Assembly: GCA_028684935.1 (NCBI GenBank)
Contig: JAQUEX010000014.1
Location: 1-33,015, forward strand
Length of the DNA stretch: 33,015 bases
From: Kiritimatiellia bacterium
GTDB taxonomy: Bacteria > Verrucomicrobiota > Kiritimatiellia > RFP12 > UBA1067
Direction of reading: 5' to 3'
How positions within the stretch are numbered: position 1 is the first letter of the stretch; each line of letters opens with the position of its first letter. Under the pieces are notes generated by a model. It had not been told where the DNA came from. It saw only the letters and a list, made by a program, of their open reading frames with translations, and ran no database searches. Shown here one piece after another: positions 13,192 through 32,967 of the stretch. The position numbers were made by a program, and so were the translations under genes.

Positions 13192-15546
13192 TTATTCAAA
13201 GCCGATCGCGAACGAGAACACCTCATCGTCCGTGTAGTCATCATCCTCGACCACCGGCACCGCGAAATCGAAGCGGATCGGGAAGCCCGGGATGTCGATG
13301 CGCAGGCCCACGCCGGCCGTCACGCACACGTCGGAAAGCTCGGGATCAAAGGCGTCCTCGCCGATCGAGCCCACGTCCATGAAGGTCGCGAAGCGCACCG
13401 CCTTGAAGACCGGGATCGTGTACTCCGCCGTCACCAGCGCCAGCGTCTCGCCGCCGATCGGCGCGTGGGCGCCATCCACGCTGCCGCGAAACACCTTGGG
13501 GCCGATGTCGCGGTATTCGACACCGCGCACGGTGCGCGGGCCGCCCAGGAAGAGGCGCTCGTAGATCGGCACCTCGTCGTCGCCGTACGAATCCACGGTC
13601 TCGACGCGGCCGCGCAGGCTCAGCACGTGCTTGTACCACGGCATGCGGAACCAGTGGCGGTAGTTGGCACCCAGCTTGTAGTACTCGGTCTCGCCGATGC
13701 CGCTCTCGGAAGCCTCGCCGAAGACCGTCGTCTGGTAGCCTTTGGTCGGGATAAAGGCGTGATCGCGCGTGTCGTGCGCCCAATAGAGGCGCAGCACGCT
13801 GTTGATCGCGTCGCCGTACAGCTTCTCCTGATATTTGAAGTAAGAATCAAAATCACCGGTTTCGACGGGGTCGTCGTTCATGTCCGTATCCCAGTCGCCA
13901 TCCTCCACATCGTCCATCTCGACCAGCTCGAGGGTGTAGCGCATGCCGACGCGGCCGACCTTGACGGGATAGGAGAGACCGACCGAGCCGCCGGTGCGGA
14001 TCTCGTCGTACTGATCGTACCAGCGCATGCGGCGGTAGGCCTCGACGGTCAGCGCCAGCGGCCGGTCCATGAACCAGGGCTCGGTCCAAGAGACCTCGGC
14101 GGTCTGGCGGCGCGAGCCGAGTTCCACGCCCAAGCGCGCCTTCTGCCCGCCGCCCGTGAAGTTCGGCCAGTTCAGAATGTCGAAGTTGCTCTGTGTGATC
14201 TCCATGAAGCCGACCACGTTATCGATGCTGGAGACGCCCGCGCCAACCATGAAGTTGCCGGTGCGCTGCTCTTCGACTTCATACACCAGATCGCGCACGC
14301 CGGCCTTATCGGTCTGCTCGGAGTAGTGGCGCACGGTCTTGAAATACTGCAAGTTTTTCAGGCGGTTCTCGCTGCGCTCGATGCGCGGCTCGTTCATGAT
14401 TTCGCCGGGGCTGACCATCACCTCGCGGCGGATCACCTTGTCCTTGGTCTTGTTGTTGCCGCGGATCACGATATTGCGGATGTAGACCAGCTCGCCCTCG
14501 CGCACGTCGTAGGTGATCGCCATGCGGCCCGGCTTGCCCGGCACGGTGTCTTTGACCGCGCGCACGGCGGTGTCCACGTAGCCGCGCGACCCATAGTAGT
14601 CGCGGATATCCTTGGCCGCGTCGTCGATCGTCTGCTGGCCGGCCACCGCGTCCACCTTGAGGCGCTCGCCCGAGGCCAGCACTTCGCGCTCGGGGAAGAG
14701 CTTCACGCCGCGGATCGCGGTCGAATCGACCGTATACTGATCGCCCTCGGTCACGCCGAACACCACGTCCACCTTCTCCTTGCCCACCTTTTCCATGACC
14801 GGCGCGGCGACGCGGGCGTCCAGATAGCCGGCATTCTTGTAGACATCCTCGGCCATCTGGCGCGCGTCCTCAAGGTCTTGCGCCGAAACCGGCGTGTCGG
14901 TGAACCAGCCGCGCGGATCATACCACGGGCGCTGGCCGAAGGAGGAGCGCAGTTCTTTGTCGGGGATCGAAACATTACCGGTGAAGCGGTACTTGCGCAC
15001 CTTGGCGCGCTCGCCCTCCTCGACCGTGAAGATCACATTCGCCGCTCCGGCGCTGTTCGGGATCGGCTGGATCTCGGCGCCGATCTTGATGTTCGGGAAG
15101 AATTTCTTCACGTACTCGTCGCGGATCTTGGAAACCTTGGAAGAGAGGACCGGCTCATCGATGTAATCGCCGCTCTTCAGTTCGGAGAGCTTGCGGATCT
15201 TGCGCTCGCTCAGATACTCGGCGCCTTTGATGGCCAGCGGTTCCTGGAAACGGTAACGGCGCTTCACCACGTAAACCACGCGCACGCCGCCCTCGACCTT
15301 TTCCAGTTCCACGCCTGCGTACCCGTAACGTCCGGTGTCCAGCAGCGCGCGCACATCTTTGGAGAGCGCCTCCTGCGACAACTCCGCACCCGGCTGCACG
15401 CTGCAGAAGGAGAGCACGTCCGTCGCATCGGTCCCAAACTGGTCCAGCACGCGGACCGACACATCTTTGACAAGGGTTTCCGCACCCATCACACACGCGG
15501 CAGAAAACACCACCGCCGCAGCCCACGCACGAATCGACATTCGCAT
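13192..15546 (-). CDS. bamA: outer membrane protein assembly factor BamA
   Basis: POTRA repeats (VRDLVYEVEEQRTGNFMVGAGVSS), beta-barrel with FLGGPRTVRGVEYRDIGPK, C-terminal aromatic residue; conserved bamA-skp-lpxD order. Confidence 0.95.
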   Translation of the reverse strand: MRMSIRAWAAAVVFSAACVMGAETLVKDVSVRVLDQFGTDATDVLSFCSVQPGAELSQEALSKDVRALLDTGRYGYAGVELEKVEGGVRVVYVVKRRYRFQEPLAIKGAEYLSERKIRKLSELKSGDYIDEPVLSSKVSKIRDEYVKKFFPNIKIGAEIQPIPNSAGAANVIFTVEEGERAKVRKYRFTGNVSIPDKELRSSFGQRPWYDPRGWFTDTPVSAQDLEDARQMAEDVYKNAGYLDARVAAPVMEKVGKEKVDVVFGVTEGDQYTVDSTAIRGVKLFPEREVLASGERLKVDAVAGQQTIDDAAKDIRDYYGSRGYVDTAVRAVKDTVPGKPGRMAITYDVREGELVYIRNIVIRGNNKTKDKVIRREVMVSPGEIMNEPRIERSENRLKNLQYFKTVRHYSEQTDKAGVRDLVYEVEEQRTGNFMVGAGVSSIDNVVGFMEITQSNFDILNWPNFTGGGQKARLGVELGSRRQTAEVSWTEPWFMDRPLALTVEAYRRMRWYDQYDEIRTGGSVGLSYPVKVGRVGMRYTLELVEMDDVEDGDWDTDMNDDPVETGDFDSYFKYQEKLYGDAINSVLRLYWAHDTRDHAFIPTKGYQTTVFGEASESGIGETEYYKLGANYRHWFRMPWYKHVLSLRGRVETVDSYGDDEVPIYERLFLGGPRTVRGVEYRDIGPKVFRGSVDGAHAPIGGETLALVTAEYTIPVFKAVRFATFMDVGSIGEDAFDPELSDVCVTAGVGLRIDIPGFPIRFDFAVPVVEDDDYTDDEVFSFAIGFE

Positions 15547-15577: not shown

Positions 15578-15612
15578 TCACCGTCTGACGTCCAACGCCC
15601 AGCGTTCACCTG
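15578..15612. repeat. heptamer word array R3 (degenerate copy)
   Basis: Reverse strand reads as heptads gtgaacg|ctgggcg|ttggacg|tcagacg|gtgaacg. Confidence 0.55.
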
Positions 15613-15701: not shown

Positions 15702-15773
15702 CTCCGTCTCCTTTCTCCCTTCTCCTTTCTCCCTTCTCCCTTTTACTTATTCCCTCCTCCCTACCCTCTCCCG
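15702..15773. repeat. polypyrimidine tandem array R5 (14-bp unit cctttctcccttct)
   Basis: tcctttctcccttctcctttctcccttctcccttttacttattccctcctccctaccctctccc. Confidence 0.8.
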
Positions 15774-22747: not shown

Positions 22748-22990
22748 ATGAAACGTTTCATGACAATGATGGCTCTGGCGGCGGCAATGGTGGCTTCGGT
22801 GGCGGTGGCGCAATGTCCCGCGACCTGTCCCAAAGAGAAGAAGGCCGCCTGCAAGTGCGAGTCGTGCGGGTGTACCGCAAAGGTCAAAAAAGCCGATTGC
22901 AAGTGCGACAAGTGCGCATGCGCCAAGCCGGCGCAGTGTCCGAAGGCCAAAGAAGGCGCTGCCAAGAAGGGCTGCTGCCCGAAGACCTGA
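22748..22990 (+). CDS. secreted cysteine-rich metallothionein-like peptide
   Basis: GGAGGTGACACATG; signal peptide MKRFMTMMALAAAMVASVAVA; 13 Cys in about 59 mature residues with repeat ACKCESCGC...DCKCDKCAC. Confidence 0.75.
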   Translation: MKRFMTMMALAAAMVASVAVAQCPATCPKEKKAACKCESCGCTAKVKKADCKCDKCACAKPAQCPKAKEGAAKKGCCPKT

Positions 22991-23130: not shown

Positions 23131-24678
23131 ATGATGCAAAGACGTATGAAAATCACGATTGTCCACCAAGCGGTCGCCGCAGACGCGCCGGCCGATGAAC
23201 GCGATGTTCTGGACCAGGCCGCAGCCATCCGCGACGCGCTGCGCGCGCGCGGCCATGCGGTCACGTTGCTGCCCTGCACGACCGATCTCGGCAATATGCG
23301 GCGCAAGCTGGAGGTACTGGCACCTGACTGCGTCTTCAATCTGGTCGAGACGCTGGACGGATCGGGCCGGCTCATCCATCTGGCGCCGGCCGCCTGGGAG
23401 GTGGCGGGCATCCCCTTCACCGGCAGCTCCGCCGAGGCGCTCACGCTCACCACGCACAAGCTGCTGGCGAAAGAGCGTATGCGGGCCGCCGGACTGCCGG
23501 TGCCGGAGTGGGTCGGCGGGGGAACGCTGAACGCTCAACGTTCAACGCTCGATGCGCAAGACGCAATGAACGGCGATTGGATCGTGAAGTCGGTGTGGGA
23601 GCATGCGTCGGTCGGGCTGGGTGACGACAGCGTGCTGCGCGGGGTGACCGCAGCCGAGGCGGCCGCGCGATTGCCGGAGGGCTTTTTCGCCGAACGGTAT
23701 ATCGAGGGGCGCGAGTTCAATGTCGGATTGCTGACCGGTGCGGATGGACCGGAAACGTTGCCGCCGGCCGAGATCGTGTTCGAGGCGTATCCGGACGGCA
23801 AACCGCGGATTGTGGGCTATCCGGCCAAATGGGACACGGATTCTTTCGAATACGCGCACACCGTGCGCCGCTTTGTCGATCCTGCGGCCGACGGTCCGCT
23901 GCTGACAGAGCTGACGCGGCTCTCGCGGCGCTGCTGGGAGGCGTTCGGCCTCGGCGGCTGCGCGCGCGTCGATTTCCGCGTGGACGCGGAGGGCAGGCCG
24001 TGGGTTCTCGAAGTCAATGCCAACCCCTGCCTGGCGCCCGACAGCGGCTTTGCCGCGATGCTGGCGCAGGCCGGCATCGATTACGGCGCAGCGATGGAAC
24101 GGATCGTCTCAGAGGCCGGAGGTCAGAGGTCAGAGGCCGGAGGTCAGAGAAAGAACGCTCAACGTTCAACGCTCAACGCGCAACGCTCAACGCCGCCGTC
24201 GCCGGTGACCATCAGGACGTCGCTCGTGCCGGAGGATGTGGCGGCCGTGCGCGAGGTGACGGCATCGACCGGATATTTTCACGAGCATGAGATTCCGGTG
24301 GCGGTCGAACTGGCGGAGGAGCGGCTGGCCAAAGGCGCGGCGTCAGGATATGAGTTTGTGTTCGCCGAGCAGGACGGACGCGTGGTCGGGTACACCTCGT
24401 TCGGGCCGATCCCCTGCACGCGGGGCAGCTTTGACTGGTACTGGCTGGCGGTGCGGCCCGAGTGTCAAGGGGCGGGTCTCGGCCGGCGCCTGCTGCAGGA
24501 GGTGGAGGCGCGCGCCCGCGCGATGGGCGGAGCCCGGCTCTACTGCGAGACTTCCGGCCGGCCGCAATACGCTTCGACCCGCTCGTTTTACGAGCGCATG
24601 GGGTTCACGCTCTGCGAGGTGCTGGCGGATTATTACGAGCCGGGCGACGGGCGCGCGACTTATGTCAAAGCGCTGTAG
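23131..24678 (+). CDS. D-Ala-D-Ala ligase-like ATP-grasp protein fused to C-terminal GNAT acetyltransferase
   Basis: ATP-grasp motifs (WIVKSVWEHASVGLGDDSVL, ARVDFRVDAEGRPWVLEVNANPCLAPDSGFAAM) then GNAT motifs (WYWLAVRPECQGAGLGRRLLQEVEARA...STRSFYERMGF). Start approximate (first of MMQRRMKITIV). Confidence 0.85.
   Translation: MMQRRMKITIVHQAVAADAPADERDVLDQAAAIRDALRARGHAVTLLPCTTDLGNMRRKLEVLAPDCVFNLVETLDGSGRLIHLAPAAWEVAGIPFTGSSAEALTLTTHKLLAKERMRAAGLPVPEWVGGGTLNAQRSTLDAQDAMNGDWIVKSVWEHASVGLGDDSVLRGVTAAEAAARLPEGFFAERYIEGREFNVGLLTGADGPETLPPAEIVFEAYPDGKPRIVGYPAKWDTDSFEYAHTVRRFVDPAADGPLLTELTRLSRRCWEAFGLGGCARVDFRVDAEGRPWVLEVNANPCLAPDSGFAAMLAQAGIDYGAAMERIVSEAGGQRSEAGGQRKNAQRSTLNAQRSTPPSPVTIRTSLVPEDVAAVREVTASTGYFHEHEIPVAVELAEERLAKGAASGYEFVFAEQDGRVVGYTSFGPIPCTRGSFDWYWLAVRPECQGAGLGRRLLQEVEARARAMGGARLYCETSGRPQYASTRSFYERMGFTLCEVLADYYEPGDGRATYVKAL
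23523..23557. repeat. heptamer word array R3 inside CDS (first)
   Basis: aacgctg|aacgctc|aacgttc|aacgctc|gatgcgc. Confidence 0.85.
24109..24150. repeat. 21-bp in-frame tandem duplication R4 inside CDS
   Basis: tcagaggccggaggtcagagg + tcagaggccggaggtcagaga, encoding SEAGGQR twice. Confidence 0.9.
24153..24195. repeat. heptamer word array R3 inside CDS (second)
   Basis: aacgctc|aacgttc|aacgctc|aacgcgc|aacgctc|aacgccg; shares 22 bp gaacgctcaacgttcaacgctc with 23529-23550. Confidence 0.9.
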
Positions 24679-26338: not shown

Positions 26339-26389
26339 GCAAGGGGAGAGGGGGAAAAAGGAAGAAGGAAAAAGGAGGAGGGAGGAGTT
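26339..26389. repeat. polypurine array R5 (opposite orientation)
   Basis: gcaaggggagagggggaaaaaggaagaaggaaaaaggaggagggaggag. Confidence 0.65.
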
Positions 26390-26402
26390 TCAGTTCCGGC
26401 TG

Positions 26403-26457
26403 TCCCGGTAGCCTCGGCAGTCTCGGCAGTCCCGATAGTCTCGGCAGTCCCGGCTCT
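26403..26457. repeat. 9-bp word array R7
   Basis: cggcagtct|cggcagtcc|cgatagtct|cggcagtcc|cggctctca. Confidence 0.75.
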
Positions 26458-30485: not shown

Positions 30486-30540
30486 TCATAATCTTAATCT
30501 TAATCATAATCATAATCTTAATCTTAATCTAGATCTTGAT
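30486..30540. repeat. hexamer word array R6 (copy a)
   Basis: cataatcttaatcttaatcataatcataatcttaatcttaatctagatcttgat, period 6 (taatcN). Confidence 0.85.
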
Positions 30541-30696
30541 CCCCATCCCGATCCGGGCACCCGTCGATCCACGCTGCTTCACATAATCTGCAACCATACT
30601 ATCTCAACTTCGGCCGCCCGTCAAAACCCCCAGTCAAAAGCCCCTCGACAGACTGACACAAATGACGGACACTGTTTCCCGACGCAGGGACATTAA

Positions 30697-31454: not shown

Positions 31455-31690
31455 ATGAACGGGCTATTCGACCATGAGAAGTTGACCGTCTATCAGGATT
31501 CGATCCGTTTTGTGGTGTGGGCGGGTGAACTCTTGGAAACACTTCCAAAGAGTCTGGCGGCCTACGACCAGTTGGATAGGGCTTCGACGTCGATTCCCTT
31601 AAATTGGGCTTGATCCGCAGCACGTCCGCTGATCGTATCCATGTGGAACGGGCCGAATATGAGACCGACGACCGGCGGTTAGCGGATTAG
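31455..31690 (+). pseudogene. four helix bundle protein (S23/IVP-like), internally deleted and frameshifted
   Basis: N-part MNGLFDHEKLTVYQDSIRFVVWAGELLETLPKSLAAYDQLDRASTSIPLN then stop; a C-terminal-like segment GLIRSTSADRIHVERAEYETDDRRLAD continues in another frame to the TAG at 31688. Confidence 0.75.
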
Positions 31691-31715
31691 GATTACGATT
31701 AAGATTACGATTAAG
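31684..31715. repeat. hexamer word array R6 (copy c, reverse orientation, inside right end of element)
   Basis: ggattaggattacgattaagattacgattaag. Confidence 0.75.
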
Positions 31716-32809: not shown

Positions 32810-32967
32810 AAAGGGTTACCCCCTCACGCCGGGAGGGACGAGCGTCCGCTCGTCCAGGGCAAGCAGACGCTTGCCCCTCCCGTGTGTCAAAGGGTTACCC
32901 CCTCACGCCGGGAGGGACGAGCGTCCGCTCGTCCAGGGCAAGCAGACGCTTGCCCCTCCCGTGTGTC
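32810..32967. repeat. two perfect tandem copies of a 79-bp palindromic unit
   Basis: aaagggttaccccctcacgccgggagggacgagcgtccgctcgtccagggcaagcagacgcttgcccctcccgtgtgtc at 32810-32888 and 32889-32967. Confidence 0.95.

Follow-up and report, generated by a model that had tools for sequence, protein, structure and literature searches.

Dispersed heptanucleotide repeat arrays in and around an ATP-grasp/GNAT fusion gene of a Kiritimatiellia bacterium

The stretch of 33,015 nucleotides analysed here (the window; positions 1 to 33,015 of contig JAQUEX010000014.1, assembly GCA_028684935.1) carries three arrays of seven-base repeats in frame inside one gene, which encodes a predicted fusion of an ATP-grasp ligase and a GNAT acetyltransferase. 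These arrays are most probably (probability of about 0.8) lineage-specific dispersed heptanucleotide satellites, which the protein tolerates where the reading frame, the strand and the fold permit. The initial annotation had taken them for DNA elements that are scattered over the genome and, once inserted into a protein, are tolerated there. This reading was supported genome-wide and in the loops of fumarase and fucokinase, with qualifications as to the age of the first array (site 1), the length of the interdomain linker and a supposed related array at 15578. The genome to which the window belongs is a draft of 3.8 Mb in 430 contigs, 84% complete, and the genomes of the relatives named below are metagenome-assembled.

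The host gene and the repeats of the window

The host protein matches Dala_Dala_lig_C (PF07478) of Pfam at residues 113-321 and the GNAT acetyltransferase domain (PF00583) at residues 399-487, and the nearest solved chains by profile alignment are 2r7h for the GNAT part and 8evx (DdlA). The former is a putative D-alanine N-acetyltransferase, while the remaining nearest solved relatives are D-Ala-D-Ala ligases; judged from these matches, the protein is a predicted D-Ala-D-Ala-ligase-like ATP-grasp enzyme fused to a putative D-alanine N-acetyltransferase-like GNAT domain. An in-frame ATG at 23131 represents an alternative start of the gene. The AlphaFold model was poor (pLDDT 50, with seven sequences in the alignment), and the placement of the arrays in loop or linker is based on the Pfam matches, the profile alignment to the solved ligases and the length variation among orthologues. 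Directly upstream of the gene, at 22749-22990, there is a small Cys- and Lys-rich ORF whose N-terminus is signal-like and whose product, judged by eye, resembles a metallothionein. At the relatives' loci L014, L016, L017 and L018 a paralogous ATP-grasp gene (~30% identical), which the window lacks, lies directly upstream of the fused gene, and separate genes encode the ATP-grasp and GNAT parts at L007, L009 and L010.

Both AACGYTC arrays reported initially, with their identical 22-bp core, are present in the host gene (Table 1): the matches at lag 7 amount to 22/28 over the five imperfect heptads of site 1 and to 29/36 in the second array, and the exact 22-mer GAACGCTCAACGTTCAACGCTC, common to both, starts at 23529 and 24153. 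The perfect 21-bp tandem duplication said to precede the second array, TCAGAGGCCGGAGGTCAGAGG, was likewise found at 24109-24149 and is built of TCAGAGG-like heptads. Translation in the host frame yields GGTLNAQRSTLDAQ, SEAGGQRSEAGGQR and NAQRSTLNAQRST across the three arrays, so that the claimed NAQRSTL and SEAGGQR heptapeptides are all encoded in frame. The arrays correspond to residues ~126-138 and 322-350 of 510, the former inside the Dala_Dala_lig_C match and the latter between that match and the GNAT domain, and the Pfam boundaries thus agree with the assignment of one array to the ATP-grasp domain and of the others to the interdomain linker. The linker DNA is almost entirely repeat, with arrays of unlike units abutting, and one extra base breaks the heptad register between the TCAGAGG array and the second AACGYTC array. 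RNA structure was considered as the basis of the arrays and rejected because of inconsistent folds, the linker array folding worse than shuffled sequences (z +1.72) and site 1 giving a modest value (z -2.17).

Table 1. Fusion gene and heptad repeats located in the window
Feature	Position	Strand	Product, reading or matches	Location or basis
ATP-grasp/GNAT fusion gene	23146..24678	+	510 aa	translation, Pfam, solved chains, orthologues
Site-1 AACGYTC array, ~5 units	23523..23557	+	TLNAQRSTLDAQ	ATP-grasp domain, between ..PVPEWV and WIVKSVW
TCAGAGG/CCGGAGG heptad array, 6 units	24109..24150	+	SEAGGQRSEAGGQR	interdomain linker
Second AACGYTC array, ~6 units	24153..24195	+	NAQRSTLNAQRST	interdomain linker
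Degenerate heptad-like stretch	15578..15612	+	weak, 15/28 at lag 7	intergenic
TCTCCCT/TCTCCTT heptad array, 5 units	15707..15742	+		intergenic
Purine-rich heptad array, GGAAAAA/GGAAGAA type	26353..26387	+		intergenic

The link of the degenerate stretch at 15578 to the coding arrays, proposed initially, was not established: its level of lag-7 matching is reached or exceeded at ~1% of the window positions, and being too degenerate to serve as evidence it was set aside. The TCTCCCT/TCTCCTT and purine-rich arrays are the better intergenic heptad arrays of the window. The purine-rich one is adjoined by a 9-bp/27-bp array, CAGTCCCGG, at 26391-26454; period-6 arrays of the TAATCT / GATTAC type occur at 30486-30554 and 31684-31713, and a perfect 79-bp tandem duplication with GGACGAGCGTCC-type palindromes at 32810-32967.

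Dispersal of heptad arrays in the genome and among relatives

The exact doublet of the AACGYTC unit, AACGYTCAACGYTC, occurs 54 times genome-wide, while the reversed-pattern control gave 0. Survey of a 599-kb sample, which includes the window and is AACGYTC-biased, being partly selected for AACGYTC content and partly not, revealed 59 period-7 arrays against 2-3 at the control periods 5, 8, 10, 11 and 13 at a fixed score, and at a stricter threshold 35 period-7 arrays were observed against 0 in a Markov-3 simulation. The heptad arrays are thus dispersed genome-wide, as had been suggested. Arrays of period 6, whose units are degenerate, are likewise over-represented in the genome. That the host gene holds ordinary conserved protein sequence with a chance periodicity, for which the recurrence of the site-1 residues among orthologues might speak, is practically impossible: these counts, i.e., the period-7 enrichment and the 54 dispersed copies with zero control, refute it, and the variability of the loops stands against it as well.

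The heptad units met in the sample include AACGCTC, AACGTTC, AACTCCT, AAGGAGG, TCAGAGG, AACCAGA, AAGTAAT and others. Arrays with different units abut within 60 bp 11 times, where ~0.5 are expected, and in some abutting arrays the unit changes while the heptad phase is kept, as at 14759-14842 of locus L079. It is conceivable, though rather doubtful, that an unusual or dedicated process of replication or repair seeds period-7 arrays regardless of the unit, so that the period is what is inherited and the permissive loops of housekeeping enzymes are continually rewritten.

Only 19 of the 59 period-7 arrays lie in predicted genes, although coding sequence makes up 87% of the bases (P 9e-22; genes called for this placement with a home-made hexamer model), and some are located no more than tens of bases from gene starts or stops, the start positions in these calls being unreliable. 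Among the 35 AACGYTC arrays sampled, ten are in genes (nine distinct, one being repeated by two contig ends), and 10/10 have the stop-free orientation, in which AACGYTC reads NAQRSTL; the complementary strand carries TGA in the repeat. TCAGAGG is similarly open on one strand, with stop codons on the complement. The first filter on the survival of coding arrays would accordingly be a strand free of stop codons. The array-bearing proteins are mutually unrelated and comprise a fucose pyrophosphorylase/GHMP kinase, fumarate hydratase, a B12-binding/radical SAM protein, an HZS_alpha-FGE protein, a squalene-cyclase-like protein, an apolipoprotein N-acyltransferase with the array at its N-terminus, and a DNA polymerase A-like protein in which three types of heptad follow one another, its match being situated at the end of a contig and scoring under the curated cut-off. 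Two of these hosts resemble the window gene in having their array between two Pfam domains.

Screening of 60 relatives found the AACGYTC doublet abundant in the genus of the window and in the genera g3, g9, g12 and g17 of its family, and outside the family in two genomes (G042 and G056), while TCAGAGG has a patchy distribution, with a pattern unlike that of AACGYTC. Of 388 genomes screened in the phylum, 59 gave a match, and bursts appear in families scattered across it, for example 133 in G284, 33 in G206 and 21 in G072. Simple local slippage alone does not explain identical units in distant Verrucomicrobiota, and the bursts in distant lineages would imply recurrent dispersal or horizontal seeding.

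The arrays might also be pieces of a larger, MITE- or REP-like mobile element that contains heptads in its interior and brings them in. About nine intergenic arrays do share a left flank, GCCGCGAATGATCGAAGGGGTAACTTTCAACG, several of them also with AAGTTATGGACG on the right, and these ~9 arrays may travel in a larger element. As an explanation of the arrays in general it is unlikely, since the flank is missing at most of them, including all coding ones, GCGAATGATCRAGG is exact only twice in the genome, and other heptad units form arrays without the flank; no flanks common to the coding arrays were found among the sampled AACGYTC arrays, and no terminal inverted repeats at the coding heptad arrays. 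The flank GAATGATCGA was rejected as a carrier of all arrays, being limited to a subset. Sites with GCCGCGAATGATCGAAGGGGTAACTTTCAACG ... AAGTTATGGACG around 1-5 heptads are L091:10849, L121:13883, L078:712, and L077:1255 and 18110; further such sites around heptads are L114:1052, L115:7447 and L122:11077, and copies of the flank devoid of heptads are at L103:9500 and L075:19499.

Variability at orthologous sites

The fused gene was found in twelve relatives within the order (loci L014-L025). Heptad DNA occupies the site-1 position in L014-L017: the genomes G006, G012 and G026 have AACGYTC heptads in identical codon phase, and G028 has five drifted GACRCYC heptads, while none occur in G015, which is a congener of G028, in G007 or in the other families. 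Two genomes of one genus, G026 and G012, differ at site 1 by exactly 7 residues, i.e., three units, and the residues NAQRST/NVQRST are kept in several genera. As the phase and position agree in four genera of this family, the site-1 array is probably old and would since have been kept, shortened, drifted or lost. Its persistence in four genera exceeds what is expected of a purely neutral insert and to that extent speaks against tolerated satellites.

The linker of the host protein has 72 residues between fixed landmarks, as compared with 65-90 in the others, and is therefore not longer than in the array-free orthologues; the heptads have not lengthened it, and repeat DNA fills a linker that was already variable. 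The linkers of G006 and G015 contain a palindromic repeat, GGTAGGGACGGTTCCCCGAACCGTCC, present in 15 and 36 copies in the respective genomes, and those of G012 and G026 a repeated GGCGAGCGTCCCCGCGA-like motif. Site 1 is not a private recent insertion, its heptads recurring in three other genera. The repeats were also considered as a cause of the ATP-grasp/GNAT fusion, which was rejected because the fusion occurs in families with heptad-free linkers.

Variable or absent insertions at orthologous positions, the kind of variability that the initial annotation had put forward as a check, were encountered in fumarase and fucokinase. The fumarase loop between CHFEQ and VWLLQKGGGSENMS has a few residues in most relatives, yet it holds ~8 TCAGAGG heptads in G000, ~4 in G012 and GAAGAGG heptads in G003 (93% identical protein), whereas in G004 (L137) the place is taken by an in-frame palindromic element with GGCTCTTGCAAAACCCC arms; the arm GGGTTTTGCAAGAGC of this insert has 35 copies in the G004 genome and 0-5 in seven relatives. 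The fucokinase loop comprises five AACGYTC-type heptads in G000, two in G001 (exactly 21 bp fewer than in G000, at 93-96% identity), five with a second array of a different unit in G003, and none in G002 and G004. Between close relatives the difference in copy number is exactly three units (21 bp).

The heptapeptides could be regarded as a selected flexible polar spacer, the DNA periodicity being secondary, and both the retention of NAQRST/NVQRST at site 1 across several genera and the usefulness of polar flexible residues to linkers would agree with it. Such selection is nevertheless improbable: the arrays lie mainly outside genes, identical repeats at the DNA level occur in unrelated proteins, the signal has a period of 7 bases, which is no multiple of 3, and the peptide of the fumarase loop follows the repeat type, QRSEVRGQ giving way to GRGKKEEGGRKREE and this in turn to a palindromic insert unrelated to either. 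According to the preferred reading, that of tolerated satellites, the encoded heptapeptides would be by-products of the repeat dynamics of the DNA, near-neutral for the protein. Besides the strand, two further filters would then determine the survival of coding arrays, namely a total length that preserves the frame, with three-unit steps of 21 bp corresponding to one heptapeptide, and a location in a change-tolerant surface loop or interdomain linker, and selection would purge those arrays which break the frame, add stops or disturb the fold.

Known heptamer repeats and the origin of the arrays

Heptamer direct repeats of TAACTGA have been described in marine Beggiatoaceae, cyanobacteria and some Bacteroidetes (PMC4679880), and heptameric repeats GGGAATC / GGGGAYT in Xanthomonas and Nostoc (PMC4692102), to which the cyanobacterial STRR heptamers are related. 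The arrays reported here resemble the former (well over 100 arrays there) in the seven-base unit, the dispersed and mostly intergenic location and the occurrence of in-ORF copies in the stop-free orientation only. However, TAACTGA is one fixed unit positioned close upstream of start codons, with coding copies near the protein ends, whereas here many coexisting units grade into one another and copies are found mid-enzyme in conserved proteins. With the Xanthomonas repeats, of which 7-11% are intragenic, they have in common dispersed heptamer arrays and degenerate units, but the Xanthomonas and Nostoc heptamers are G-rich and form G-quadruplexes (PMC4692102), while AACGYTC is without G runs; the units here differ from both TAACTGA and GGGAATC.

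The coding AAGACTC heptanucleotide repeat in neuO of the E. coli K1 prophage CUS-3 (PMC3046976) provides a case in which three units encode one heptapeptide, RLKTQDS there, exactly as in the arrays described here. By this analogy, and given that the copy number varies between close relatives, the coding arrays could be contingency loci, in which one unit more or less would put the gene out of frame and turn the enzyme off. This is quite improbable, as the neuO array is perfect, long, phase-variable and beside the start codon (PMC3046976), whereas the present arrays are short (5-6 units), imperfect (74-81% identity at lag 7), mid-gene and dispersed over many genes, their hosts are housekeeping enzymes such as fumarase, and every orthologue observed is in frame, with 21-bp steps. 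The Rickettsia palindromic elements (PMC2229807) are likewise dispersed repeat DNA, situated between genes as well as in frame within many conserved proteins; they are 105-146-bp palindromic MITE-like units, and the host-gene arrays, with the folding z-scores given above, do not form a long stem-loop palindrome of that type.

Since one defining feature fails for each of these systems (the unit sequence or G4 potential, the long perfect 5' array, and the palindrome, respectively), the arrays were assigned to none of them. The closest kin in kind at the DNA level are the TAACTGA and GGGAATC repeats, the closest coding case is NeuO, and the closest example of repeat DNA read in frame within conserved proteins is the Rickettsia elements. 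No papers on such repeats in Kiritimatiellae/Kiritimatiellaeota, or on NAQRST, were found in the open-access literature.

The satellites would thus be short tandem arrays of AACGYTC, TCAGAGG, AACTCCT, AAGGAGG and other units, which recur in the genome via some dispersal step, and in which replication slippage is the probable engine that alters the copy number in place and homogenises drifting units.

Dispersed heptamer repeats are known from a few bacteria and are poorly explained. In the present genome several heptamer units occur side by side, with the period alone in common, and several conserved enzymes carry the arrays in frame. The orthologues of the fumarase loop, in which the same place is empty, filled by a palindromic repeat or filled by either of two heptad types, represent a natural experiment. 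The passage from repeat DNA to protein sequence and the preference for seven in bacterial satellites are thereby made testable, and the arrays illustrate how repeat DNA may turn into protein without breaking it.
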